64,000 nt of DNA. Origin: Methylomonas sp. EFPC3 (lineage in GTDB: Bacteria > Pseudomonadota > Gammaproteobacteria > Methylococcales > Methylomonadaceae). How positions within the stretch are numbered: the stretch's first letter is position 1; the number at the start of each line of letters is the position of its first letter. The stretch is taken from contig NZ_CP116398.1 in the NCBI RefSeq assembly GCF_029643245.1, positions 992,001 through 1,056,000 of the forward strand, read 5' to 3'. The notes under the pieces are model-generated. The model saw only the letters and a list, made by a program, of their open reading frames with translations. It ran no database searches and was not told the DNA's origin. Of the stretch, positions 2,944-61,496 are shown piece by piece. Both the position numbers and the translations under genes were made by a program.

Positions 2944-4152
2944 TTAATTTGTTTTATTGAATCGCCATAGCACATAACGATTGAGAGTGTGATAAAACCA
3001 GCTACGAAGAATGCGGCTTTTGAGTTTTAACCATGGTACCTGGGTTTGATCGATCTGGCTGAATACCTGATTAATTTTGACTTTCACCACCGCTTCTGAA
3101 AAATTATTTTCCAGAAAATTTCTGCCGGATAAACCGATTTCGCTATGCCGCCCCGGATCGTTGAGTAAACTTAATACGTGATCGGCAAATTCTCTGGGTG
3201 TATCGCCAATCAATATTTCTTTGCCGGGAGTAAGCCCGAAGCCTTCCAGCCCAATCGAGGTCGTGACGACTGGGAGGCCGAAGGACAGCGCTTCGCCAAT
3301 TTTGCCCTTTACACCGCTCCCGTAACGCAAAGGTGCTACCGAGATATAGGACTCTGTCAAATAAGGGTGCATCGACGGCACGTGGCCCAAAATCTCAATG
3401 GGCCCGCCGTGAAGATTTTTCACCGTCTCCGGGTAGCCTTCGCCGATTACTTTAAAACGAACCTGAGGGGCTTGTTCTAATATTAGCGGCAAGACCTCGT
3501 TGGCAAAATATAACACTGCGTCACTATTAGGCTCATACTGGCCCCAGCCTACAAACATCAATACGTTTTTATCTCGCGCCGCAGTAGGAATATATTCACC
3601 CATAGGATGAATATTTGGAATGATAGCGAGTTTATTGGCGGGGAGTTCTGGTGCTAATAACTGACGCTCCTGTTCAGAAACGACAATAACGAAATCAGCT
3701 TTCCTATAGGTGGCAATTTCTTCCCGCTTAACTTTATTGGCGAAATCTATATCGCTCTGTTGTTTAGTCAATCGGGCACGTGACATATATCGGCCGAACT
3801 GAACGTCTACAGAGTCTATAATCAATTTCGCTGTCGGCGCCCAATCTCTGACTGCTTGAATATTTTTCGGGGTCGCCAGTACATAGAGAACGAATACCAC
3901 CGCATCGTAATTTTCGGCCTGTAAGGCCGGCACCAATCCGTTATCGCAAATACCGACGCCTTGAGACACCAAAGTTTGTCGATAAAGCGACACCGCGGAC
4001 TCTCCTAATTCGTTGGCCATGTAAGGGACATCCAACGGGCAAAGCGATACTTGGTGAGACTCCGTCAGTATTTGAATCAAGCGAGAAAACCTGAGTTCGT
4101 ATGAGGAACGGTCGAATGCTGGGTAGGAGTCTGAGACGATCAGTATTTTCAT
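2944..4152 (-). CDS. GT4-family glycosyltransferase
   Basis: This 402-residue GT-B glycosyltransferase starts MKILIVSDSYPAFDRSSYELR, a typical acceptor-domain beginning. The Rossmann C-domain starts near VLMFVGWGQYEPN (about residue 200). The donor motif is SVAPLRYGSGVKGKIGEALSFG (about residues 275-297), typical of GT4 enzymes of lipopolysaccharide and exopolysaccharide loci. It sits in the middle of the minus-strand polysaccharide operon. Its basic, aromatic C-terminal tail resembles that of the downstream enzyme, which may mean shared docking at the membrane or with a partner. Substrate unknown. Confidence 0.9.
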   Translation of the reverse strand: MKILIVSDSYPAFDRSSYELRFSRLIQILTESHQVSLCPLDVPYMANELGESAVSLYRQTLVSQGVGICDNGLVPALQAENYDAVVFVLYVLATPKNIQAVRDWAPTAKLIIDSVDVQFGRYMSRARLTKQQSDIDFANKVKREEIATYRKADFVIVVSEQERQLLAPELPANKLAIIPNIHPMGEYIPTAARDKNVLMFVGWGQYEPNSDAVLYFANEVLPLILEQAPQVRFKVIGEGYPETVKNLHGGPIEILGHVPSMHPYLTESYISVAPLRYGSGVKGKIGEALSFGLPVVTTSIGLEGFGLTPGKEILIGDTPREFADHVLSLLNDPGRHSEIGLSGRNFLENNFSEAVVKVKINQVFSQIDQTQVPWLKLKSRILRSWFYHTLNRYVLWRFNKTN

Positions 4153-4209
4153 GCGCTAAATGACTCGATAAAGACTATATTTGTTGAGATATCGATCCGG
4201 CAACTAAAG

Positions 4210-5097
4210 TTAATGTTTTACCCATGGCGGTATGAATTCGCTCCAGTATTGATCCTCGTTTTTTGCCAATCGCTTGATAATCGGTCTGAGAAATCTAATA
4301 ACAGGATTCTGGATAATTGCTTGGTAATTTTTCTCGTACCAGCAGTATTTATTGATTATATCTGTTAGTTGTTTTTCGACATGCTTTTTACCACCATGTT
4401 GAATGATAACCATCGCACAATCTAAAAGCATAAGTTTCTCAAAAGCTGTTGTTTTGGCATTAGGATGACTTAAAGCTTCAGAAAGAAGGCTGTCAGTGCT
4501 GATAAATTTAATTCCATTTTCCGCCATTCGCAGCCATAAATCCAGATCCATCGCGATGTGGATAGATTCATCAATCGGACCAACCTGCTCCCAAGCCGCG
4601 CGAGAAAATGCGCTAGACGGTTGCAAAAAATTGCCGCCATTCATCCAGCTATATAGGCTATTCAGATCGATTGTTGGATTAGGTTCAATGTAATAAATTT
4701 CGTTGCCAGACAAATCAACAATTCTTCCTGAGCCAACGACCATTCCAATTTCCGGATTGTTCTGGAATGTCTTAGAGAAATATTCAAGAGTGCCAGGCAG
4801 GTACCAATCATCCGAATTTAGCCAAGTAAGTATGTCGCCGGTGGCTTTTGCCATGCCTTTGTTTATAGCATGGCTTTGACCTCTATCAGGCTCGCTAACC
4901 CAATAAGTTAAGTATTCCTCATATTTTTTAATAATATCGATTGTATTGTCGGTGCTGCCGCCATCGATAATTATGAACTCTAAATTAGGATAATTTTGAG
5001 ATAAAACAGATTGTATTGTCTTCTCGATGAACTCCCCCTGATTGAAAGTTGGAGTTACAACAGATATTCTAGGAAGCTGTTCACATTGAAGAGTCAT
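4210..5097 (-). CDS. GT2-family glycosyltransferase (GT-A fold)
   Basis: A 295-residue single-domain glycosyltransferase. The N-terminus ISVVTPTFNQGEFIEKTIQSVLSQ and the motif IIDGGSTDNT (about residues 41-50) form the nucleotide-binding half of a GT-A domain. LNSDDWYLPG (about 94-103) supplies the metal-binding acidic residues. There is no transmembrane segment, so it should act at the inner face of the membrane on a lipid-linked glycan. The coding sequence is clearly AT-richer than the genes further right in the window, as is common for O-antigen loci. It is separated by 92 bp from the ABC transporter gene upstream. Confidence 0.9.
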   Translation of the reverse strand: MTLQCEQLPRISVVTPTFNQGEFIEKTIQSVLSQNYPNLEFIIIDGGSTDNTIDIIKKYEEYLTYWVSEPDRGQSHAINKGMAKATGDILTWLNSDDWYLPGTLEYFSKTFQNNPEIGMVVGSGRIVDLSGNEIYYIEPNPTIDLNSLYSWMNGGNFLQPSSAFSRAAWEQVGPIDESIHIAMDLDLWLRMAENGIKFISTDSLLSEALSHPNAKTTAFEKLMLLDCAMVIIQHGGKKHVEKQLTDIINKYCWYEKNYQAIIQNPVIRFLRPIIKRLAKNEDQYWSEFIPPWVKH

Positions 5098-5189
5098 GAT
5101 CTAAAAGTAGGTTGAATTTCTGTGCTTAGTGGTCAATATTGTTTATTCGTCGGTTACAGGGAGTAAATTGAATGTTCAAACAAGATTTT

Positions 5190-6416
5190 TCACTGAAAGC
5201 TCCATTTGCCATTTAAAGCTAAAAATCCTTCCGTCATGCTTTGAGTGCGTGCAATGTCTGGTGCGGTTACTTGAAATGTGATAACGCCTTCTTCATAGAA
5301 GATATTACGAGTTATACGTCCTGCATCCACGCCGATACGAACTGAAAAAACGCCTGGTAGCAATGGAAAAGAAGGTATGTCGATGGCTAATGTATATTCT
5401 CCTGGAGTTAGGATTTTGTCAGCAAACAATGATTCCGTGATTTCAGTGGCAAGATAAAGAAAATCAGTGGTATGAATGCCAAATCCAAAATTGGGTTTTT
5501 CAAGTTCTTTATTAACTCTAAAATGTAACTTAAATGTTATATTTTCGTCGGTACGTATACTTTCAGTTACACTTCCATCTTTATTGTATATCTTCACCGA
5601 TAGCAATTCGATATCATCCGTATGTTCTTTGCGAGCACTGCTTGACGAATGGTGGCTTTGCTCTTTTATTTTTTCGTCGTTTTGTGCGTAAAAAAGCCCA
5701 CATATTTCTGCCGGGCTTCCATCCGCGACAATTTTACCGTGATCCATGAGGAGCACTCGCTTGCATATGCGTTCGATTTGTCGAATGTTGTGGCTGACAA
5801 GTAAAACCGTTTTTCCTTGATGAATTATCATGTCTTCCATCTTATTGAAGCATTTCCTTTGAAACGCTAAGTCGCCGACCGCCAAAACTTCATCGATAAT
5901 TAGAATATCCGCATCCAGACTGGTAGCGATGGAAAACCCCAGCTTTACGGTCATGCCGGAGCTGTATCGTTTTACGGGGGTGTCAATAAATTTTTCCAAT
6001 TCGGAAAAATTAATGATTTCGTCCAGTTTTTGTTGAATAATCTTTTTCGGTATACCCAAAATCGAACCGTTCAAAAAAATATTTTCCCTGCCGGTTAACT
6101 CTGGGTTTACGCCTGCGCCCACTTCTATAAGCGGGGCGATACTACCTCTTACCACAACATTGCCCTTTGTAGGCTTGCTAATATTGGCGAGGTGTTTGAG
6201 TAGAGTGCTTTTTCCGGCGCCGTTGTGTCCGATAATGCCAACGACTTCACCTTCATCAATAGCAAAGTTGACATTGTCGAGGGCTTTAAACCGCTCGCGG
6301 CTAATTGTAGGCTGAAAACTTAGGCGTCGTATTGCGTTGACGGCAGTTTCTTTCAAACTTGTAAGGTGTCCGAGTTGATATTCTTTGGTCAGATGATTGA
6401 CTTCTATAATGGCCAT
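5190..6416 (-). CDS. wzt: Wzt-type ABC transporter ATPase with C-terminal glycan-binding domain
   Basis: This is the ATPase of an ABC-type O-antigen or capsule exporter. Residues 1-235 are a complete nucleotide-binding domain: Walker A GHNGAGKST (63-71), signature YSSGM (151-155), Walker B ILIIDEVLAVGD (171-182) and H-loop VSHN (His209). Residues about 260-408 form a beta-rich extension of the Wzt C-terminal type. In characterised systems, such as E. coli O8/O9a, this domain recognises a terminal modification of the finished glycan before export. Its permease follows 44 bp upstream on the same strand. The presence of this domain implies a chain-terminating modification, but no obvious capping methyltransferase or kinase is encoded in the visible operon. 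Confidence 0.93.
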   Translation of the reverse strand: MAIIEVNHLTKEYQLGHLTSLKETAVNAIRRLSFQPTISRERFKALDNVNFAIDEGEVVGIIGHNGAGKSTLLKHLANISKPTKGNVVVRGSIAPLIEVGAGVNPELTGRENIFLNGSILGIPKKIIQQKLDEIINFSELEKFIDTPVKRYSSGMTVKLGFSIATSLDADILIIDEVLAVGDLAFQRKCFNKMEDMIIHQGKTVLLVSHNIRQIERICKRVLLMDHGKIVADGSPAEICGLFYAQNDEKIKEQSHHSSSSARKEHTDDIELLSVKIYNKDGSVTESIRTDENITFKLHFRVNKELEKPNFGFGIHTTDFLYLATEITESLFADKILTPGEYTLAIDIPSFPLLPGVFSVRIGVDAGRITRNIFYEEGVITFQVTAPDIARTQSMTEGFLALNGKWSFQ

Positions 6417-6460
6417 ATAGTGGAATTTGAGTATTTCGATTCTAGTAAGTTATCGACCTA

Positions 6461-7279
6461 TTAGATAACGTCAGCAAACCAATTTTCAGCCCGCTTAAAA
6501 AACCAATAGCTAAAAGGAAGCACAGACAAAGTTAATATCAAACCTGGGTAAAGTGCTTGAAAATCCGGGTCAGATGCTCCAATTAGTGTGCGCTGAAAAC
6601 CATCGATTATTCCAACTAATGGATTTATAGTGTAAAGGGTATACAACTTCTCCGACCACTCTCCGGCTGCCTGCTCTATAAGTAGTTTCTTTTTAACCAG
6701 GCTTAAGGGATAAATCACCGGTGAGCCGTACATCAATAACGATAGGCCGATTGGTATGGCTTGCGCGATATCGCGGTAGTAGACATTCATCGCTGCGCCG
6801 AAAAAACTGATCGTCAAAGCCACTACCATGGTATACAGCACAAAAACCGGCAGCCAGAAAGCATATATAGTAGGCAAAATTTTGTAATAGATCATCATTC
6901 CGGCCAGTATTACAAAACTAACAACTAGTTCTACTAGTTTGGTCACCATTGCTGTCAACGGAAAAATTTCCCTTGGGAAATATATTTTTTTAATTAAGGC
7001 TGCGTTCGAGGTGACGCTGTTTACACCTTCGGAAACGGATTCCTGAAAAAAGACCCAAGGTATTAATGCCGCAAAGGTAATTAAAGGGTAAGGTAATCCA
7101 CCTGTCTCAATACCTACGAAACCCTTGACTAGCGTGAATACCAACATCAGCATAACTGGTTTTAGTACCGCCCATAAAATGCCAAGGTAAGCCTGTTTGT
7201 AGCGAATAACTATATTTTTGTAAGTTAGAGCGGCTATTAGCTCTCTATAGTTATAAAGGTTTTTGATTATTCTGAACAT
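6461..7279 (-). CDS. wzm: Wzm-type ABC-2 transporter permease for polysaccharide
   Basis: A 272-residue ABC-2 membrane protein with about six hydrophobic segments, starting MFRIIKNLYNYRELIAALTYKNI. The amphipathic N-terminus and the TYKNIVIRYKQAYLGILWAVLKP segment are typical of O-antigen, capsule and teichoic-acid export permeases. It partners the ATPase encoded immediately downstream and should move undecaprenyl-linked glycan across the inner membrane. The gene is AT-rich like its neighbours at 4-9 kb. Confidence 0.93.
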   Translation of the reverse strand: MFRIIKNLYNYRELIAALTYKNIVIRYKQAYLGILWAVLKPVMLMLVFTLVKGFVGIETGGLPYPLITFAALIPWVFFQESVSEGVNSVTSNAALIKKIYFPREIFPLTAMVTKLVELVVSFVILAGMMIYYKILPTIYAFWLPVFVLYTMVVALTISFFGAAMNVYYRDIAQAIPIGLSLLMYGSPVIYPLSLVKKKLLIEQAAGEWSEKLYTLYTINPLVGIIDGFQRTLIGASDPDFQALYPGLILTLSVLPFSYWFFKRAENWFADVI

Positions 7280-7306
7280 CTCGAATGGTATGAGCTATAA
7301 GGTATA

Positions 7307-7918
7307 TTAATCAGCTTTTTGGGTTTTTTTCAGTTTAGAAAGACGTTTCAATAGAGGCTTAGAATCCGGTTTCTTTTCTAAGCCTTGTTCCAGTATATTG
7401 ATCGCCTCGTTAGGTCTGTTCAATTTGATATATATATCGCCTAGCGCTGCATAAGGCATCCAGGTTTTCGGGCTACGCTCGATACTTTTGTGATAGTTGT
7501 CGATAGCCGCTTTGTAGTCCTCCAATCCTTCGTATGCTTTGCCGATGTCGTAGTACATTTTAGGGATCAATACAAAATCCGACACCATACCGTGCTTAAA
7601 CGGAAAAACCATTTCATTGATGGCCTGTTTCAGATAACTCATTCTTTCCGCACGGTTGTTGGTTTTCCAGGCCAGGTTATAGGTAAACAATCCTGCACAA
7701 TAATGGTGAATACCGCCGTTGCCTGCCAGCCTTTTTTCCCACATCAAGGCTCTTGGCGTGCCTTGGGCACCTTCCTGATGCATTTCTTTGCAGAAAATAG
7801 GCAGCCCCATATAATCTAAATCTGTTTGAGGAAATTCTGCTTTAGCAATGATCGGTAAAAGTCCGATACACAGCATAAATGTTTTTAATGATTTTTTGGC
7901 AAACTTTATAATTCTCAT
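7307..7918 (-). CDS. secreted tetratricopeptide-repeat protein
   Basis: The 203-residue product has a Sec signal peptide (charged start MRIIKFAKKSLK, hydrophobic core FMLCIGLLPII, likely cleavage after AKA at about residue 27). Two to three TPR units follow in the C-terminal half (YYDIGKAYEGLEDYKAAIDNYHKS, then YAALGDIYIKLNRPNEAINILEQGL). It is therefore periplasmic and probably a scaffold. It lies 27 bp upstream of the permease gene in the same operon, which suggests a role in assembly or export of the glycan, but no function is established. It keeps two or three Cys residues in the N-terminal part. Confidence 0.8.
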   Translation of the reverse strand: MRIIKFAKKSLKTFMLCIGLLPIIAKAEFPQTDLDYMGLPIFCKEMHQEGAQGTPRALMWEKRLAGNGGIHHYCAGLFTYNLAWKTNNRAERMSYLKQAINEMVFPFKHGMVSDFVLIPKMYYDIGKAYEGLEDYKAAIDNYHKSIERSPKTWMPYAALGDIYIKLNRPNEAINILEQGLEKKPDSKPLLKRLSKLKKTQKAD

Positions 7919-7949
7919 TATGTATAAGCTTTATAAGTTGTAAAAATGG

Positions 7950-9179
7950 CTACTGTTTCAGTAATTTAAAGTAAATTGACTCTATACTTGTTGTATGAGT
8001 TTTTATAGAGAATAATTTAAACGCCTTTTCTTGCGCGTTTTCCCCAAGCCGCTCGGCCAAGTCAGGTTTTTGGTAAAGTTCGAGTACCGCATTACGAAAG
8101 CTTTCGGAGTCACCGGCGCTAAATAACAACCCCGTTTCTCCGTTGTCCAGCATTTCCGCGCCGCCACCGTGGTTCGGGCCGATTAAAGGTCTGCCCATTG
8201 CCATGGACTCGATCACTACTGTGCCTAACGGTTCAGGCGCTGTCGATGCCGACACGACCACATTTAAACCGTTGTATACGCGTTCCATTTGCCCGATATG
8301 GCCGGTGAAAATAACAAAATTTTTTAAGTTTTCGTTATTGACTCTATTTTTCAACATTTCTTCATAATTAGAGCATTCTTCCGGTGTACCGCCAATAATT
8401 ACCATTTTTAAATTTGGAATTTTATCAGATAGCTCTTTGGCGGCATCCAAAAATAATTCCTGGCCTTTCCAGGGAATCAGTAATCCTACCAGTCCGACTA
8501 CAAAATCATTGGTGTCTATATCAAATTGTTTACGGAATGTGTTGCCGTCAGCCTTTAAATCGAGTTTTTGTAATTCTATCCCATCATAAACTACGGTTAT
8601 TTTTTCCCGGGCAACCATTAGTTCAGAAGTCATTCTGTGAGCGACCCAGTTAGAAACAGATACAAAGTGGTCCGGAATTTTGTAAAGGTAGCCCGCCAAT
8701 TTGGAATAATTAGGGTTTTCGCGCACATGGCAAACACACGGTTTATGCAAAATTTTAGCGGCCAGCAAAGCGGCGCGGTTGCAAACTGGGTCATTGTTGG
8801 CGTGAATCAGGTCTGCTTCAAACTTCCAGGCAATCCAGAGAAGTTGCAAAAAAAACGGCATAAAATTGAGCAAATCATCAGCGCGAGCGATGATTTGCGT
8901 GGCGATAAATCTTAAATATCGATTGCTTGCAAACACTGGTTTGCGTTTTACTAAAGCACGCCATGCGCTAATGTCGAAATGGCGGTCTTTTATATGTTTC
9001 CAAACGGCCTCGCTTGCTATTTCTTGGTATTGGGCAGTTGCGCGTCCAGTAACAACGATCGGATATAATTGGCTACGATCAAGACATCTCACTAAATGGC
9101 GCAGACAAATTACGGCACCACCATAGCCAATGCCATTTTCAACGAATAATATGCGTTTAGGTTTGACTGCGCCGTTCAT
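7950..9179 (-). CDS. GT4-family glycosyltransferase
   Basis: A 409-residue GT-B glycosyltransferase. The N-domain begins RILFVENGIGYGGAVICLRHL, with a Gly-rich acceptor loop. The C-domain begins VVGLVGLLIPWKGQELFLDA (about residue 228), and the donor motif EPLGTVVIESMAMGRPLIG lies at about 318-336. This architecture is typical of enzymes that add mannose, rhamnose or similar sugars in surface-glycan pathways. It is the fifth transferase of the locus. A 31-bp gap separates it from the TPR gene downstream. Substrate unknown. Confidence 0.9.
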   Translation of the reverse strand: MNGAVKPKRILFVENGIGYGGAVICLRHLVRCLDRSQLYPIVVTGRATAQYQEIASEAVWKHIKDRHFDISAWRALVKRKPVFASNRYLRFIATQIIARADDLLNFMPFFLQLLWIAWKFEADLIHANNDPVCNRAALLAAKILHKPCVCHVRENPNYSKLAGYLYKIPDHFVSVSNWVAHRMTSELMVAREKITVVYDGIELQKLDLKADGNTFRKQFDIDTNDFVVGLVGLLIPWKGQELFLDAAKELSDKIPNLKMVIIGGTPEECSNYEEMLKNRVNNENLKNFVIFTGHIGQMERVYNGLNVVVSASTAPEPLGTVVIESMAMGRPLIGPNHGGGAEMLDNGETGLLFSAGDSESFRNAVLELYQKPDLAERLGENAQEKAFKLFSIKTHTTSIESIYFKLLKQ

Positions 9180-54121: not shown

Positions 54122-54389
54122 AAAACCTATCCTCCGCAGAGCAGGCTAATTTTGCCGATCAAGATAGCAGCGAATCGGAATTAACCCAAAAATTGACGGG
54201 TTTACCACCGGCGCAGAGGGGGCAAGCCGACTTTTGCTGGAAAGCTAATCCGCCGATTTTCGTGGCTTAAGTGGCAGGTATTGCTATTGCCCAAGGCAAA
54301 CCGATCCTGGCCTGCGCTTTTTAAAAGTATTCGCTTACTTTCCGCATTTGATTCTTCATCTGACGATCATCACGAACCCATAATTCTGC

Positions 54390-54420
54390 TTGACCTTCCA
54401 ATTATGTAAACCTTTAGATT
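54390..54420 (+). promoter_or_regulatory. MerR-type promoter (19-bp spacer) before the methyltransferase gene
   Basis: TTGACC (54390-54395), a 19-bp spacer, then TAGATT (54415-54420). A 19-bp spacer is the mark of MerR-family activated promoters. The start TTGACCTTCC matches the promoter before the copper ATPase gene base for base over 10 bp. The rest of the 371-bp gap (54122-54492) shows no other clear element. A ribosome site AGGAG lies before the ATG at 54493. Confidence 0.55.
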
Positions 54421-54492
54421 CATGTCTCCGGATAGTCTCTGATGTGAGGTGGCTATCCATGATTAAAATTTGAAAATTTTCAGGAGCTTGAA

Positions 54493-55317
54493 ATGGAATC
54501 GCACGTACTAGCCAACCAGAAAGCCGCGTCCGCCTATAACGCCGCGGCCGAACTATTCGATCATCCCGCCAACACGTTTTGGAACCGTTTCGGCCAAGGT
54601 ACCATTGAGCGACTGGATTTAAGAGAAGGCGACAAAGTGTTGGATGTATGTTCCGGAACCGGTGCTTCAGCTTTGCCGGCGGCGCGTAAGGTTGGCTCGG
54701 ATGGCCGTGTGGTTGCTGTCGATTTGGCGGAAAAATTATTGGCCAGGGCGGCAGAAAAAGCCAAAGCTGATGGTCTTGAGAACATGGAGTTTCGGGTCGA
54801 CGATATGCTCGCGTTAGTGTATCCCGATGGTTATTTTGATGCCGTCGTTTGCGTGTTTGGGATATTTTTCGTGCCTGATATGGCTGCAGCGGTCAGGGAG
54901 TTATGGCGGCAAGTCCGGCCGGGCGGGCGGATAGCGATTACGACCTGGGGGGGCGATTTATTCGAGCCTGCCAACACCTCGCTCTGGCAAGCCATACGCG
55001 ATGAACGCCCCGATCTGCACAAAGACTTCAACCCGTGGGATCGCATTTCCACGCCGGAAGGATTTTTGGCGATGTTGGCCGAAGCCGGTTTAACCGATGC
55101 GAACGTTTTCGCTGAAGACGCGACTCATAGTCTGTCCGACCCCGAGGATTGGTGGACCTTGGCGATGGGTAGCGGCTATCGGGGCACCTTGGATCAGCTC
55201 AATGAGGAACAGCTCAGGAGGGTAAAACAAAGTAATCTCCATCACTTGGCCAGTCAATCGGTTACCGAAATTTCAGCCAACGTGCTTTATGCCGTTGTTG
55301 AGAAACCACTTATTTGA
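54493..55317 (+). CDS. class I SAM-dependent methyltransferase
   Basis: A 274-residue cytoplasmic methyltransferase of the UbiE/MenG-like type. Motif I is VLDVCSGTGASALPAARKVG (about 50-69), followed by VDLAEKLLARAAEKA (about 76-90), the acidic motif FRVDDMLAL and PGGRIAITTWGGD (about 145-157). The C-terminal half binds the acceptor. The acceptor is unknown. It lies upstream of the copper ATPase gene, with a CueR-like promoter before it, so it may be part of the copper response. AGGAGCTTGAA precedes the ATG. Confidence 0.88.
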   Translation: MESHVLANQKAASAYNAAAELFDHPANTFWNRFGQGTIERLDLREGDKVLDVCSGTGASALPAARKVGSDGRVVAVDLAEKLLARAAEKAKADGLENMEFRVDDMLALVYPDGYFDAVVCVFGIFFVPDMAAAVRELWRQVRPGGRIAITTWGGDLFEPANTSLWQAIRDERPDLHKDFNPWDRISTPEGFLAMLAEAGLTDANVFAEDATHSLSDPEDWWTLAMGSGYRGTLDQLNEEQLRRVKQSNLHHLASQSVTEISANVLYAVVEKPLI

Positions 55318-55386
55318 AGACTTGCCTCGTCTCCAGTATCGATTTTTTTCAATAAGTGCCAGTATCCAAAAAAGCGAAAAAAACTG

Positions 55387-55417
55387 TTGACCTTCCCATC
55401 GTGGTAAGCCGAACACT
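55387..55417 (+). promoter_or_regulatory. CueR-type promoter before the copper ATPase gene
   Basis: TTGACC (55387-55392) starts the element, which contains an imperfect dyad CCTTCCCA-tcg-TGGTAAG. At a 19-bp spacer the -10 position reads AACACT, which is weak, as expected for an activator-dependent promoter. The layout and the cueR gene nearby suggest Cu(I)-CueR control. Confidence 0.6.
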
Positions 55418-55451
55418 TTGATCACAGTCAATTACATCAGGAGACTTGATC

Positions 55452-57665
55452 ATGAAAACTTTAAATTCCCACCAGTTGGCGGACCATTCGGTTTACTTGT
55501 CGATAGAGGGTATGACCTGCGCGTCCTGCGCCGGACGTGTCGAGAAAGCGCTGAACAATATTTCCGGCGTAGAGCATGCCAGGGTAAATTTAGCTACCGA
55601 AAGTGCCGTTGTCCGCAGCGACGGCTCGGTAGCTTCCTACGCACTGATAAGCGCGGTTGCGGCCACAGGTTACCGTGCTTACCTCAAGCAGGATCGGCCG
55701 GCAAACAAACCAAGGTCGCGAGACGGACTGACGGTGGTGATGGCGGCGGTATTGTCGCTGCCATTACTGGCGCCGATGCTACTGGAGCCTTTCGGTATCC
55801 ATATTGCACTACCGGCCTGGTTGCAATTGAGTTTAGCAACACCGGTCCAGTTTGGATTGGGAGCGCGTTTTTTCCGGGCAGGTTGGACAGCGCTGAAAGC
55901 CGGTGCCGGCAATATGGATTTGCTGGTGGCCCTGGGTACCAGTGCAGCGTACGGCTTGAGCGTTTACCAACTGACGGGCTCCACTGGCGGCATGGTGCCG
56001 CATCTGTATTTTGAGGCATCGGCGGTGGTGATCAGCTTGGTGTTGACCGGCAAATGGTTGGAGGCGTGGGCGAAACGGCAAACGGTTTCAGCGATTACGG
56101 CGCTGCAAGCCTTACAGCCGCAAGTCGCGCGGGTCAAACGCAACCATCGAGAGTTGGACATTGCAATTGACAGCGTCAAGGTCGGCGATCTGGTCGTGGT
56201 CCGCCCCGGGGAACGTATCGCGGTCGACGGTACCATCGCCGATGGCCGCAGCCATATCGACGAATCGATGGTTACCGGCGAAAGCATGCCTATCGCCAAA
56301 CAGCCCGGCGATAAGGTGACCGGCGGCGCACTCAATGGCGAAGGCTTGTTGCTGGTACATACCGATGCGGTCGGCGCGGAGACTTCCTTGGCAAAAATGA
56401 TTCGCTTGATCGAGGACGCACAATTGGCCAAGGCGCCGATTCAACATTTGGTGGATAAGGTCAGCGCATGGTTCGTGCCGGCGGTACTAGCCATTGCCTT
56501 GATGACCTGGCTGGGTTGGTGGTTGCAGGGTGCCGCCATGGAAACCGCGATTATCAATGCCGTGTCGGTATTGGTGATTGCCTGTCCGTGTGCGTTGGGC
56601 TTGGCAACGCCCGCTGCGCTGATGGCCGGTACCGGCATTGCCGCCCGCCACGGCATCCTGATCAAAAGCCCGGAAGTGCTGGAAGTTGCCCATCGCATTA
56701 CCACGGTCATCTTCGACAAAACCGGAACCTTGACCCAAGGGAAAGGTTACCTGGTCGAAGCCGCGCCCTTCGGTATCGACCGCAAACGCTTGTTGCAACT
56801 GGCCGCTGCGCTACAAACCGGCAGCGAGCACCCTTTGGCAAAGCCAGTGCTTGAAGCCGCACATGAGTTACAGATCGAAACTATGCCGGCAGATGCGGTC
56901 ACGGCCTTGCCTGGACGCGGGCTATCCGGGCGAGTGGATAATTTCGATTTGCGTTTGGGCAATAGCCGCTTGATGTCTGAATTGGGCATTGATCTAGGTG
57001 AGCTGGCGGAACGTGCCCAGGCCATGGAGCTTGCCGGCAATACAGTGTCCTGGCTGGCAATGGCCGCGCCGCAAAAACGCTTGCTCGGCATGATGGCCTT
57101 TGGCGACCGACTCAAATCGTCTGCTTATCCCGCCGTCAAACAATTACAGGCATTGAATATCCAAACCGTATTGTTGAGCGGTGATAATCGCGGTAGCGTC
57201 AAGGCAGTCGGTCAGGCGTTAGGCATCAGCGACATAGTTGCCGAGGTATTGCCGGCGGATAAGGTCTATCAAGTGGAATTGCTGAAACAGCAAAACCAGC
57301 ATGTGGCAATGGTTGGCGACGGCATCAACGACGCGCCGGCGCTGGCGGCCGCCGACGTTGGCATTGCCATGGCGACCGGCACCGATATCGCGATGCAGTC
57401 TGCCGGCATCACGCTGATGCACGGCGACCCGATACTGGTAGGCGCTGCGCTCGATATTGCACAGCGAACCTATCGCAAAATCCGGCAAAATTTGTTTTGG
57501 GCGTTTAGTTACAACCTCGCAGCCATTCCATTGGCGGCATTGGGTTTGCTCAATCCGCAACTGGCCGGAGCGGCGATGGCCTTCAGTTCGCTGAGCGTGA
57601 TCGGCAACGCCTTGTTGCTTAGGACTTGGAAACCTGCCGGCTTATTGCCATCCGTCAGGCATTAA
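55452..57665 (+). CDS. copA: Cu(I)-exporting P1B-type ATPase
   Basis: A 737-residue inner-membrane pump that exports Cu(I). One N-terminal HMA domain has GMTCASCAGRVEKAL (about 20-34). Eight membrane helices include the ion-site motif IACPCALGLATPAAL. The P-domain has DKTGT, the A-domain MVTGESMPI, the N-domain SEHPLAKP, and GDGINDAPALAAADVG closes the cytoplasmic part. The ATG at 55452 has AGGAG 8 bp upstream; the TTG at 55446 is less likely. It is followed by cueR on the same strand. Confidence 0.97.
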   Translation: MKTLNSHQLADHSVYLSIEGMTCASCAGRVEKALNNISGVEHARVNLATESAVVRSDGSVASYALISAVAATGYRAYLKQDRPANKPRSRDGLTVVMAAVLSLPLLAPMLLEPFGIHIALPAWLQLSLATPVQFGLGARFFRAGWTALKAGAGNMDLLVALGTSAAYGLSVYQLTGSTGGMVPHLYFEASAVVISLVLTGKWLEAWAKRQTVSAITALQALQPQVARVKRNHRELDIAIDSVKVGDLVVVRPGERIAVDGTIADGRSHIDESMVTGESMPIAKQPGDKVTGGALNGEGLLLVHTDAVGAETSLAKMIRLIEDAQLAKAPIQHLVDKVSAWFVPAVLAIALMTWLGWWLQGAAMETAIINAVSVLVIACPCALGLATPAALMAGTGIAARHGILIKSPEVLEVAHRITTVIFDKTGTLTQGKGYLVEAAPFGIDRKRLLQLAAALQTGSEHPLAKPVLEAAHELQIETMPADAVTALPGRGLSGRVDNFDLRLGNSRLMSELGIDLGELAERAQAMELAGNTVSWLAMAAPQKRLLGMMAFGDRLKSSAYPAVKQLQALNIQTVLLSGDNRGSVKAVGQALGISDIVAEVLPADKVYQVELLKQQNQHVAMVGDGINDAPALAAADVGIAMATGTDIAMQSAGITLMHGDPILVGAALDIAQRTYRKIRQNLFWAFSYNLAAIPLAALGLLNPQLAGAAMAFSSLSVIGNALLLRTWKPAGLLPSVRH

Positions 57666-57676
57666 CCGAGCCTGCG

Positions 57677-57702
57677 TGCGGGCAGCGTACTTGTTGCCCG
57701 CA
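57677..57702 (+). terminator. hairpin between copA and cueR
   Basis: TGCGGGCA pairs perfectly with TGCCCGCA around a 10-base loop. A T-rich but interrupted stretch follows (TTGTCTTTCT). It could end or attenuate the copA transcript, letting cueR be expressed at a lower level. Confidence 0.45.
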
Positions 57703-57734
57703 ACACGTTGTCTTTCTGTGTTGGAGAATGATCG

Positions 57735-58136
57735 ATGAATATCAGCCAAGCTGCGAAAATGGCCGGCGTATCCGCTAAAATGATTCGTCACTATGAAAGT
57801 ATCGGATTGATCAAAAAAAGCGTGCGCACGGTATCGGGCTACCGGACCTACAACGACACCGATTTGCAGGTGTTGCGGATGATCAAACGAGCGCGGGGCC
57901 TGGGGTTTTCGTTGGAGCAAATCCGTGAGCTGGTCTCGCTGTGGCAAGACCCGGCACGGGCCAGCGCCGACGTCAAAGCGCTGGCCCAATCCCATGTCGA
58001 CGATTTAAACCAACGCATCGACGAATTGACCGAAATGCGCGACATTCTGGCCCGGCTGGCGCAAAACTGTAGCGGGGACAATAAACCGGATTGCCCGATC
58101 ATCGAGACCTTGGTGCTCGGCCAGCAGATGCTTTAA
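57735..58136 (+). CDS. cueR: copper-responsive MerR-family regulator CueR
   Basis: A 133-residue MerR-type activator. The winged helix begins MNISQAAKMAGVSAKMIRHYE and the dimer helix is ARASADVKALAQSHVDDLNQR. The metal loop CSGDNKPDC places the cysteines at residues 112 and 120, the same positions as in E. coli CueR (C112, C120), and no Cys79-type residue of Zn/Hg sensors is present. It should bind Cu(I) and activate promoters with a 19-bp spacer, such as those at 54390 and 55387. TTGGAGAATG before the ATG gives a ribosome site. Confidence 0.95.
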   Translation: MNISQAAKMAGVSAKMIRHYESIGLIKKSVRTVSGYRTYNDTDLQVLRMIKRARGLGFSLEQIRELVSLWQDPARASADVKALAQSHVDDLNQRIDELTEMRDILARLAQNCSGDNKPDCPIIETLVLGQQML

Positions 58137-58480
58137 TGCTATTAAACCCCAAGGATATGGGCTCGGTAAAACTACCGATTGGCCGTTATAAACTCTAAAT
58201 TTGCCGTTACAGCGGAACTTCTCATTGTCTCTCAATGTGCCCGATAGTTATATTTCCTATAAGGGGTTGGGGCTTACAAACAGCACCCATCGAAGTACAT
58301 CCCAAGTAACTCTCTTATCGACGAATCGTCGCTTGGCTCTTGTGTGCACTGGGTGAAAACCGCAAGGCAGGGAATCCTTTAGCTCCAACGCGGACAGCGC
58401 GTGGGAGATGCGCAAAAGCCAGCGCCATCGGAATTGCCGGGAGCGCAACGGTCTACCAAACGGCTGTCTTGAAAAAAGCC
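58137..58480. other. gap after cueR without recognised gene
   Basis: 344 bp between cueR and the small membrane-protein gene. Short frames on both strands have no ribosome site or family signature. I find no terminator with a T run, riboswitch or insertion remnant that I can support. Confidence 0.4.
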
Positions 58481-58761: not shown

Positions 58762-59124
58762 ATGCAGCTCGGCAAAATATTGAGTGCGGCCATGATGCTG
58801 GCGGCAGCTGCACCGCTGTCGGCCGAACCGGTCAAATGCGTGGTGGCAGGCAAGACGCTGTATACCGACGACGCCAAAAAATGCGCTAAAGGCGATGTCA
58901 AACCGATCAACGGCGCCTTGGTGATTACCGAACTGCCGGCCGCCAAGTCTGCCGGCAAATCCGCGCCGATTTCGGCGCCGGCTAGCTCAGATTCGTTGCT
59001 GGATTCTTTATTACAGCGGCTGGGGATTACGCAACAGGAAGTCGCAGCCGGTTGGAAAACCGTTGACGAAGCGCGCCAACGCGGCGAGTGGCAGGCGCCG
59101 GAGATGCCGGAAGATGCGCGTTAA
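58762..59124 (+). CDS. small periplasmic protein upstream of the multicopper oxidase
   Basis: A 120-residue protein from the ATG at 58762 (GGAGG at 5-8 bp). A Sec signal (LGKILSAAMMLAAAAPLSA, cleavage before EPVKC) leads to a short domain with two Cys (VKCVVAGKTLYTDDAKKCAKGDVKP) and a helical end (LLDSLLQRLGITQQEVAAGWKTV). The pattern resembles DUF4124-type periplasmic proteins but is not a firm match. It overlaps the multicopper oxidase start by 11 bp, so it is probably part of copper handling. The two cysteines could form a disulfide or bind Cu. Confidence 0.7.
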   Translation: MQLGKILSAAMMLAAAAPLSAEPVKCVVAGKTLYTDDAKKCAKGDVKPINGALVITELPAAKSAGKSAPISAPASSDSLLDSLLQRLGITQQEVAAGWKTVDEARQRGEWQAPEMPEDAR

Positions 59125-60823
59125 CCGCGGGCGAAAGTCTCGGTTAGCCGCCAGCCGCAGTATGTTTGCCGGCTGTTTGGCCAAGCCTGTGCCGAATCGT
59201 ATCCGCTGTATCGGCTTGGTCATGGCGCTGGCCGGACAGGCTTTAGCCGGGGAATACCATTTGACGATTGCCGAGAAGCGAGTCGATCTGATCGGCCAGC
59301 CGCAGACCGCGATTCTGGTGGACGACGGTTTGCCGGGGCCGACTTTGCACTGGCGCGAAGGCGAACAGGTGGTGTTGCATGTCGAAAACCGGCTGTCGGA
59401 ACCGACTTCTATCCATTGGCACGGCCTCGAGTTGCCGTATCGGATGGATGGCGTGCCGGGTATCAGTTTCGAGGGTATCGCGCCCGGTAGCCGCTTTACT
59501 TACCAATTCCCGGTCAAGCAGAGCGGCACCTATTGGTACCACGGCCATTCCGGCATGCAGGAGCAGCAGGGCTTGTTCGGGGCATTGATCATCGATCCGG
59601 CGCAGCCGCAGCCGCCAACCGATCGCGATTACGTGGTGATACTGTCGGATTGGCCGCAGGCAGACCCTTACCGCACGCTGGCTCGGCTGAAAAAACAGAG
59701 CGATTACTACAATTTTCAGAAACGCACGCTAGCCGATTTCTTTGCCGATATCGAACGGCTCGGGTTTGGGGAAACCGTCGACGACCGTTTGGCCTGGGGA
59801 GCAATGCGGATGGATCCGACCGATCTGGCCGACGTCAACGGTTCGACTTACCGTTACCTGATTAACGGCCGCACCCCGCAAATGCAACCGCATTTTTTGT
59901 TCCATCCCGGAGAAAGAGTGCGGCTGCGTTTTATTAACGCATCGGCGATGACTTATTTCGATGTGCGGATTCCGGGTTTGGCGATGCAGGTCGCCGCCGC
60001 GGATGGCCAAAACCTGCAGCCTTTGAATGTGAACGCCTTCCGGATTGCGGTTGCCGAAACCTATGACGTCGTGGTGCAACCCAACGCCGAACAAGCCTAC
60101 AGTATTTTCGCCGAGGCGATGGACCGCAGCGGTTACGCTCACGCCAGCCTGTCGCCGCGGGCGGATTGGTTGGCGCCGGTGCCGCCGTCGACGCCGCGGA
60201 CCTTGTTGACGCTGGCGGATATGGGCGGCGCCCACGCCGGACACGCAGTGCAGGGCGATAATCAGCTCGAACATGCCGAGCACGTCGAACATGCCGAACA
60301 TGCGCCGCAGGCTACCGACAGTCCTGAGGCCGACCGGGCAACAGAACATTCCGCCCATGTCGGCCACCATCACGCCGCCATGTCGCCGGAAATTCCGTCT
60401 TACCAGACGCTCGATTACCGCAATTTGCGCGCCCAAATCGCCACGCCGCTGCGCAAGCCGGATCGGGAAATCGAGTTGCGGCTGACTGGCGACATGCGGC
60501 GCTACATCTGGTCGTTTAACGATGTCAAATACGCCGATGCCGAACCGATTCGGGTTAAGTTAGGCGAAGTGGTCCGCTTTCGTTACGTCAATCAGACCAT
60601 GATGAACCATCCGATCCATATCCACGGTTTGTGGCAATACCTGGATATCGGCGCCGGCGCATACAATCCGAAAAAGCACGTTATCAACGTCAGGCCGGGC
60701 ACCACTGCGGTGGTCGACGTGCCGGCCGAGGCGGTAGGCGAATGGGCGTTTCATTGTCATTTGCTGTACCACATGGATACCGGCATGTTTCGTAAATTGA
60801 TCGTCGAGCCGAATCATGATTGA
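59114..60823 (+). CDS. periplasmic multicopper oxidase (copper resistance type)
   Basis: A three-cupredoxin copper oxidase, which oxidises Cu(I) in the periplasm. The start is uncertain: ATG 59114 (GGAG 10 bp upstream) gives 569 residues, with ATG 59162 and 59222 as alternatives. The leader (LVMALAGQALAGEYHL) looks like a Sec signal; no twin-arginine motif is visible, although CopA-type oxidases often use one. All four copper motifs are present: HWHGLELPYRMDG, YWYHGHSGMQ, HPIHIHGLWQ and HCHLLYHMDTGM. A His/Glu-rich insert (about 395-425, with repeated EHAEH and HHHAAM) may bind extra copper. It overlaps copB by 8 bp. Confidence 0.92.
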   Translation: MRVNRGRKSRLAASRSMFAGCLAKPVPNRIRCIGLVMALAGQALAGEYHLTIAEKRVDLIGQPQTAILVDDGLPGPTLHWREGEQVVLHVENRLSEPTSIHWHGLELPYRMDGVPGISFEGIAPGSRFTYQFPVKQSGTYWYHGHSGMQEQQGLFGALIIDPAQPQPPTDRDYVVILSDWPQADPYRTLARLKKQSDYYNFQKRTLADFFADIERLGFGETVDDRLAWGAMRMDPTDLADVNGSTYRYLINGRTPQMQPHFLFHPGERVRLRFINASAMTYFDVRIPGLAMQVAAADGQNLQPLNVNAFRIAVAETYDVVVQPNAEQAYSIFAEAMDRSGYAHASLSPRADWLAPVPPSTPRTLLTLADMGGAHAGHAVQGDNQLEHAEHVEHAEHAPQATDSPEADRATEHSAHVGHHHAAMSPEIPSYQTLDYRNLRAQIATPLRKPDREIELRLTGDMRRYIWSFNDVKYADAEPIRVKLGEVVRFRYVNQTMMNHPIHIHGLWQYLDIGAGAYNPKKHVINVRPGTTAVVDVPAEAVGEWAFHCHLLYHMDTGMFRKLIVEPNHD

Positions 60824-61496
60824 GCGGCGCAGAGCGATAGCCACAATCATCGGCCTGCTGTGGCTGAACTGCCGCGCCGATGATGGCCACATGCTGTTCA
60901 ACCGCTTCCTGGCCGAACGCCTGGAATACGAAAGTAACGGCGGACTGCATCTGGCGAAATGGGATATACAGAATTGGTTCGGCAACGACGACCACAAGTT
61001 TTGGCTGAAAACGGAAGGCGACTATTCGGCCGACCAGGACATTTTCGGCCGGGCCGATTTACAGGTGCTGTACAGCCGCAACGTCGATAGTTTCTGGGAT
61101 CTGCAAATCGGCGCCCGCCGCGCGTTCGAGCCGGAGCGCACTTTCGATGCGGTGATCGGGTTTCAGGGCTTGGCGCCGTATTTTTTTGAAGTGGACAGCG
61201 CGCTGTTCGTCACCGAGAAGGGCAATCTGCTGGGGCGATTGACTGTCAGTTATGAGCTGTTGCTGAGCCAGCGCCTGATCCTGCAGCCGCGCATCGGTTT
61301 GAATGTGGCGGCGGAAGATTTGCAATCGCGCGGTGTCAAAGCCGGGGTGACCGAATTCGAGGCCGGTTTGCGGCTGCGCTACGAAATCGAACGCGAGTTT
61401 GCGCCTTATTGGGGCGTCGATTACGTCGAAGAGCAATCGCTGCGCGAACATCAACATAGCGTCAGAGCCGTGGCCGGTGTCCGGTTTTGGTTTTAG
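60816..61496 (+). CDS. copB: CopB-type outer-membrane copper resistance protein
   Basis: A 226-residue beta-barrel protein. A short signal (IATIIGLLWLNC, before RADDGH) leads to the family core: LAERLEYESNGGLHLAKWDIQNWFG, DDHKFWLKTEGDY, QVLYSRNVDSFWDLQIGAR. It ends in Phe, as outer-membrane barrels do. The Met/His-rich N-terminal region of many CopB proteins is missing. Translation is coupled to the oxidase gene, which fits a CopA-CopB pair for copper export or sequestration. Confidence 0.9.
   Translation: MIERRRAIATIIGLLWLNCRADDGHMLFNRFLAERLEYESNGGLHLAKWDIQNWFGNDDHKFWLKTEGDYSADQDIFGRADLQVLYSRNVDSFWDLQIGARRAFEPERTFDAVIGFQGLAPYFFEVDSALFVTEKGNLLGRLTVSYELLLSQRLILQPRIGLNVAAEDLQSRGVKAGVTEFEAGLRLRYEIEREFAPYWGVDYVEEQSLREHQHSVRAVAGVRFWF

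Follow-up and report, generated by a model that had tools for sequence, protein, structure and literature searches.

A methyltransferase gene under a probable CueR-type promoter heads a copper-resistance cassette in Methylomonas

We analysed a 64,000-nucleotide stretch of Methylomonas sp. EFPC3 (contig NZ_CP116398.1, positions 992,001 to 1,056,000; hereafter the window, whose numbering is used throughout) that contains a three-gene copper cassette at approximately 54319–58409. The first gene (54493–55317, + strand) encodes a class I S-adenosylmethionine (SAM)-dependent methyltransferase (MT) of 274 residues, assigned from its matches to Pfam Methyltransf_25 and Ubie_methyltran and placed by its phylogeny in a copper-linked clade; its substitution rates and predicted fold are described below. 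It is followed by the gene for a 737-residue Cu(I)-exporting P1B-ATPase of the CopA type (55452–57665, +) and by cueR (57735–58136, +), encoding a Cu(I)-responsive regulator of the MerR family. The copA product passes the TIGR01511 model with 566.8 bits against a cut-off of 397, carries an HMA domain with a CASC motif and a CPC motif at 378, and falls below the narrower model PRK10671 (544.1 versus 1316). The CueR protein passes TIGR02044 (185.3 bits; cut-off 147.4), as do its counterparts in genomes G004 (177.8) and G056 (180.7), and falls below the narrower PRK10227 (124.5 bits versus 244), a model that seems to be built on the enterobacterial protein. Alignment with E. coli CueR (1q05) places C112, C120 and S77 in the window protein; we take the two cysteines to be the Cu(I) ligands of CueR and the serine to replace a cysteine of MerR. 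The initial annotation had noted a CueR with this cysteine pair 2.3 kb downstream, and the alignment bears out the pair.

The sequence TTGACCTTCC occurs in exact form at 54390–54399 (+) and 55387–55396 (+) and nowhere else in the window, once before MT and once before the ATPase gene. At the putative MT promoter (54390–54420, +), a TTGACC -35 hexamer (54390–54395) and a TAGATT -10 hexamer (54415–54420) enclose a 19-bp spacer (54396–54414) that contains a CCTTCC half-site; the right arm of this box is degenerate, and the box lies 103 nt from the MT start codon. The corresponding copA promoter (55387–55417, +) consists of TTGACC (55387–55392), a spacer of 19 bp (55393–55411) and AACACT (55412–55417), the site lying 65 nt before the copA ATG. 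The positions of the 10-mer, the 19-bp geometry of both sites and the -10 hexamer of the first are all as the initial annotation had described them. A scan for sigma-70 promoters lists neither box because it covers spacers of 16–18 nt only. Between the first box and MT, alignment of the Methylomonas copies reveals a leader stretch, GGCTATCCATGATTAAAATT (54451–54470, +), the core of which (CTATCCATGA) is unchanged in 9/9 copies; the ATG within GGCTATCCATGATTAAAATT is in no conserved frame. From these sequences and the comparisons that follow, MT belongs to a mobile copper-resistance cassette, MT-copA-cueR, both promoters of which are very probably under the control of CueR.

Relatives were sought in 37 genomes of the genus, 237 of the family and 369 drawn across the class; L019–L080 of the 80 loci were set aside as short or distant matches of at most 43% identity. 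MT relatives are present in 12 of the 37 genus genomes (E ≤ 1e-30) and 37 of the 237 family genomes (E ≤ 1e-60). At class level the only genome with a match at E ≤ 1e-60 is that of EFPC3 itself (1/369), and no phage match was found at E ≤ 1e-20. MT is closest (at least 80% identity) in eight Methylomonas genomes, which hold nine copies between them; every copy has TTGACCTTCC 103–105 nt before the ATG, and the DNA upstream of the copies varies by lineage and is near-identical solely inside three close pairs. The initial annotation had proposed to look for the 10-mer before homologous methyltransferase genes and had named its absence from relatives with conserved gene order as a point against a shared regulon; all nine copies retain it. 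Within the same cassette cueR lies downstream of MT or copA in 8/8 of these genomes, the order being MT-copA-cueR in G000, G016, G020 and G026, the same but in two cassettes split over contigs in G011, and, with copA missing, MT-cueR in G025, G024 and G004. The full gene order recurs in G056, from another genus (g9), with the boxes TTGACATTCCAATAATGTCAAATGCTAGATT and TTGACCTTCCCATCGTGGTAAGCCGAATACT. Taken over the boxes compared, the exact 10-mer is found in 9/11 before MT (the exceptions being G056 and G157) and 6/8 before copA (the exceptions being G016 and G002).

The signal published for CueR, as given in the text of a 2006 survey (PMC1526738), is ACCTTCCC-(5)-TGGAAGGT. Its left half-site, ACCTTCCC, is matched at 7–8 of 8 letters by the MT boxes of all nine Methylomonas copies, at 6 in G056 and at 5 in G157. 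A composite pattern, TTGACMTTCCMAYNRTGNNAA, searched in the family genomes gave 16 matches in 9/237 genomes, ten before MT, six before copA and none elsewhere, with none for the reversed control. CueR itself (E ≤ 1e-35) is encoded in 11/237 genomes, which include all nine with the pattern; the other two are G228 and G002, the latter having a copA found as two fragments and headed by a box TTGACCTTGCCACGGTGG, with no adjoining MT. When the twelve genomes with a copper-clade MT are considered (eleven from the tree, G011 by identity), the pattern is present in 9/9 with CueR and in 0/3 without a CueR match (G137, G138 and G157). The proposal that the methyltransferase gene belongs to a CueR regulon is thus supported by the conserved 10-mer, by the shared cassette with cueR and by the confinement of the pattern to genomes with CueR. 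With one mismatch allowed, the relaxed pattern yields 10 matches in G004, compared with 33 for its reverse. One of the ten is the MT box and the other nine fall inside open reading frames (one of them, on the opposite strand, right where its frame begins), with no match at four other CopA-like loci; MT-cueR would therefore appear, as far as sequence patterns can predict, to be the sole CueR target in this genome.

Another MerR-family regulator might use the MT box, its likeness to the copA box then reflecting the common architecture of MerR promoters. The EFPC3 genome does encode four other MerR-like proteins (E ≤ 1e-6), the right arms of the MT and copA boxes differ, and G157 has a drifted 19-bp promoter (TTGACATTCAAATAATGAAACATGCAAGATT) before its MT without a close CueR, its best MerR-like protein being 35% identical. 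However, the near-complete left half-site in every Methylomonas copy, the restriction of the pattern to genomes with a CueR match, and the arrangement in G004, where cueR comes immediately after MT and no further intergenic match was found, all argue for CueR, and we consider use by a different regulator highly improbable.

We also considered chance as the source of the boxes. Counting both strands, 0.12 copies of the 10-mer would be expected in 64 kb, and two are seen; across the genome it is not enriched, with 9 copies against 8.1 expected and 17 of the reversed pattern. Of the seven remaining copies six were retrieved, every one of them within an open reading frame found mechanically. With one mismatch allowed the window contains five matches to the 10-mer, an unremarkable number (20 of 100 shuffled sequences contain at least as many). 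The only exact matches to a longer form, TTGACCTTNCNANNNTG, in the 4.44-Mb genome are the MT and copA boxes, and with one mismatch it occurs at 8 genomic places versus 33 for its reverse. Chance was rejected because the longer pattern turns up only at the MT and copA promoters, although the count of the 10-mer by itself is what chance would give.

The cassette is absent from G007, a genome of the same species, which resembles the window up to about 54318 and firmly again from 58410, with nothing similar in between apart from one 87-bp match of 82% at 58278–58364. At this site G007 holds about 5.5 kb of other DNA (L148 about 2960–8490; G007:C76:83959–89490), whose genes include a 1143-residue open reading frame and one of 505 residues that looks subtilase-like by eye. 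In Methylomonas sp. LL1 the cassette is carried on a plasmid and adjoins a CusA/CzcA-type RND efflux cluster. Seven plasmid records match MT at E ≤ 1e-30, one from Methylomonas, one from Methylocystis, four from Leptolyngbya and one from Nocardia; in the one stretch of a Leptolyngbya plasmid whose annotation was read there is no copper or arsenic gene. The ratio of non-synonymous to synonymous substitution rates (dN/dS) of MT is 0.09–0.29 in 21 pairs among seven copper-clade copies, a set from which the MT of strain LW13 (G025) was excluded, and the MT protein is therefore maintained. These data bear on the possibility that the MT box is a passive leftover of cassette assembly that does not drive MT. 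One cassette could account for all of the copies, and the locus is decaying in two genomes. Nevertheless, G004 retains most of the box sequence and G056 its geometry despite synonymous divergence (dS) of 0.7–2.8; G025 and G024 have a worn remnant resembling a copA box alongside an unworn MT box; and absence of CueR accompanies absence of the pattern. We find a passive leftover barely credible.

Several observations weigh against the assignment of MT to a CueR-controlled cassette. A matrix trained on four distinct copA boxes and scored across the window ranks the MT box second, but its score of 14.0 bits is much less than the 47.3 of the copA box and only slightly more than the 11.7 of the top unrelated site; since the 10-mer is also at chance level, the case does not rest on any single sequence. 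The weak right arm of the MT box leaves a dyad of 4–7 of 10 pairs in Methylomonas versus 5–7 in the copA boxes. With the right half-site TGGAAGGT included, MT boxes match 10–12 and copA boxes 11–12 of the 16 consensus letters, and the letter count was dropped as a discriminator because chance places in unrelated CopA-like loci reach a best of 10–12 as well. At the four other CopA-like loci of G004 this count comes to 10–11 of 16, no more than chance gives elsewhere. The pattern TTGACMTTCCMAYNRTGNNAA was composed once the sites had been seen, and the counts of co-occurrence between CueR and the boxes are not independent because the genomes share one mobile cassette. The copper-clade MT genes of G137 and G138 adjoin drug-type efflux genes of the EmrA/NodT type, not copper genes; a CUS label first given to these neighbours from a Pfam CusB-domain match was withdrawn because their best NCBIfam matches are EmrA-type adaptor and NodT-type outer-membrane models. 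Finally, two copies of the cassette are damaged (G025, L124 6500–8017; G024, L125 6577–9301): the LW13 MT has an internal TAG that leaves 245 residues, an insert of about 1.2 kb interrupts cueR in G024, and between MT and cueR both retain a remnant resembling the copA box with damaged hexamers, which suggests that copA has been lost there and that the locus is eroding.

A tree of 43 MT rows was built, omitting L127–L130 and L195 (contig-split fragments), L132 (no MT), L001–L010, L012 and L014–L018; of the omitted rows, L006, L016, L017 and L018 are not duplicates of genomes in the tree or fragments of G011. The copper-linked clade comprises 11 rows (support 100/97) and includes G157, in which MT faces a copper-type ATPase convergently. 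Its sister is a clade of 18 rows (100/98), 16 of which have ars genes nearby, the other two having none in the stretch examined; the assignment of G027 depends on a single Acr3-like fragment on a short contig. MT in this sister clade typically follows arsC-arsD-arsA-(arsC)-ArsI/CadI-acr3, and paralogues of about 60–65% identity end or border the arsenic operons of numerous methanotrophs, at L134, L135, L136, L137, L172–L178, L180, L182, L184, L194 and L215. A similar arrangement is present in the public annotation of a plasmid of Methylocystis sp. MJC1, an alphaproteobacterial methanotroph. A third clade, made up of ten rows from nine further genomes of the family, shows no copper or arsenic neighbours with the queries used over the 4.7–14 kb examined, except for a CopA fragment of 35% at one edge of L185; the MT of G002 forms a lineage of its own, and three distant relatives fall outside the clades. 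Two genomes, G004 and G026, each carry one copper-linked and one arsenic-linked copy. Since the closest cousins of MT are found in arsenic-resistance operons, the enzyme may belong to the defence against metals as an arm that has been overlooked, and on our best reading it is a soft-metal-resistance methyltransferase, mainly of methanotrophs, with a sister clade serving ars operons.

This kinship raises the alternative that MT is an ArsM-like arsenite methyltransferase riding in metal islands, with copper induction being incidental. Like ArsM in ars operons, MT is a SAM methyltransferase, and its sister clade sits in arsC-arsD-arsA-acr3 operons. Unlike ArsM, the copper clade has CueR beside it, and MT scores 83.2 bits on the ArsM model PRK11873 against a cut-off of 263, with two ars-linked relatives scoring 89.2 and 80.7. 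The whole window protein has only two cysteines, short of the rule of at least three of four arsenic-binding cysteines applied in a published selection of ArsMs (PMC5552862), though some other members of the MT family have at least three by simple count. Separate copper- and arsenic-linked copies in G004 and G026 also speak against the idea. CueR is not known to sense arsenite, which we count further against it, and we regard an ArsM-like role as improbable.

MT might alternatively methylate a core metabolite hit by thiophilic metals, such as the substrate of a UbiE/Coq5-like quinone step or another cofactor, and serve as a stress isoenzyme. It shares the Pfam domain and core fold of UbiE/Coq5, with 77.6 bits on Ubie_methyltran and partial matches to the NCBIfam UbiE/MenG models, and both UbiG and Coq5 appear in the list of similar folds. 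It misses the cut-offs of these families by a wide margin, however (for example 78.5 bits on TIGR01934 versus 158.35), and its sparse distribution in the family, with one plasmid-borne case, also fits poorly with a core function, which we think unlikely. Among the structures listed, the predicted fold is nearest to fungal small-molecule methyltransferases, the first being a full-length match to the dithiol S-methyltransferase GtmA (gliotoxin S-methyltransferase, crystallised also as TmtA); this enzyme, OxaG and RoqN are 18–19% identical to MT, and fold likeness at 19% identity is no proof of substrate. RoqN is named as an O-methyltransferase and OxaG is not known as an S-methyltransferase, and so the fold does not determine the acceptor atom; none of the three is known to have a metal regulator. 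We tentatively suggest that MT methylates a small intracellular (di)thiol or a similar soft-metal ligand.

The cassette shares with the CueR/HmrR regulons (copA and cueO of E. coli, actP-hmrR of rhizobia) a CueR orthologue, 19-bp spacers, the CCTTCC half-site and a copA-cueR operon, but differs in being headed by a methyltransferase gene under its own box. By analogy with the known mechanism of CueR and MerR, CueR would sit on both 19-bp-spacer promoters and, on binding Cu(I), would realign them so that RNA polymerase starts MT and copA-cueR, or MT-cueR where copA is absent. MT might then methylate, and so cap, a ligand under excess Cu(I) or As(III) while CopA or Acr3 exports the metal. We can envisage, with reservations, a hitherto unrecognised soft-metal-resistance arm of methanotrophs in which MT caps a small molecule that binds metal, a (di)thiol being the likeliest candidate. 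CueR would call on the enzyme against Cu(I) in one clade, ars operons would include it in the sister clade, and in some genomes it would be the main CueR target instead of an efflux pump.

CueR regulons are textbook systems of efflux plus oxidation, and a methyl-transferring enzyme would be a new kind of response within them. Further candidate targets named in the text of the 2006 survey include a multicopper oxidase, chaperones, cytochromes, glutathione S-transferases, glutaminase and an amino-acid transporter, and its main text contains no word starting with 'methyltransferase' (PMC1526738). No CueR-regulated methyltransferase, and no copper transcriptome of a Methylomonas strain, was found in the literature searched, which did not extend to most subscription papers; within that literature the regulatory logic is known and the methyltransferase effector is new to CueR regulons. 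The pairing of copper- and arsenic-linked clades in one family under two metal sensors leads us to expect a shared acceptor touched by both Cu(I) and As(III). Copper decides which methane monooxygenase methanotrophs use, and copper-induced small-molecule chemistry in these organisms therefore bears on methane oxidation.

Some further features were noted at related loci. The MT copy of G002 (61% identity), for which neither copper nor arsenic neighbours were found with the queries used, has a MerR-type-looking sequence, TTGACCTTACCATAAGGTTAAACTG, upstream (L133:7795). A relative in Methylococcus capsulatus (L018) has TTGACCTTCCC on the minus strand about 100 nt upstream, directed away from the gene; for M. 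capsulatus Bath, the absence of a CueR homologue is reported in a genome paper of 2004 (PMC517821). In the window, the cassette is closely followed downstream by a second copper locus (59063–61496), which encodes CopB and a multicopper oxidase of the CopA type; this locus contains no exact TTGACCTTCC and is retained in G007.
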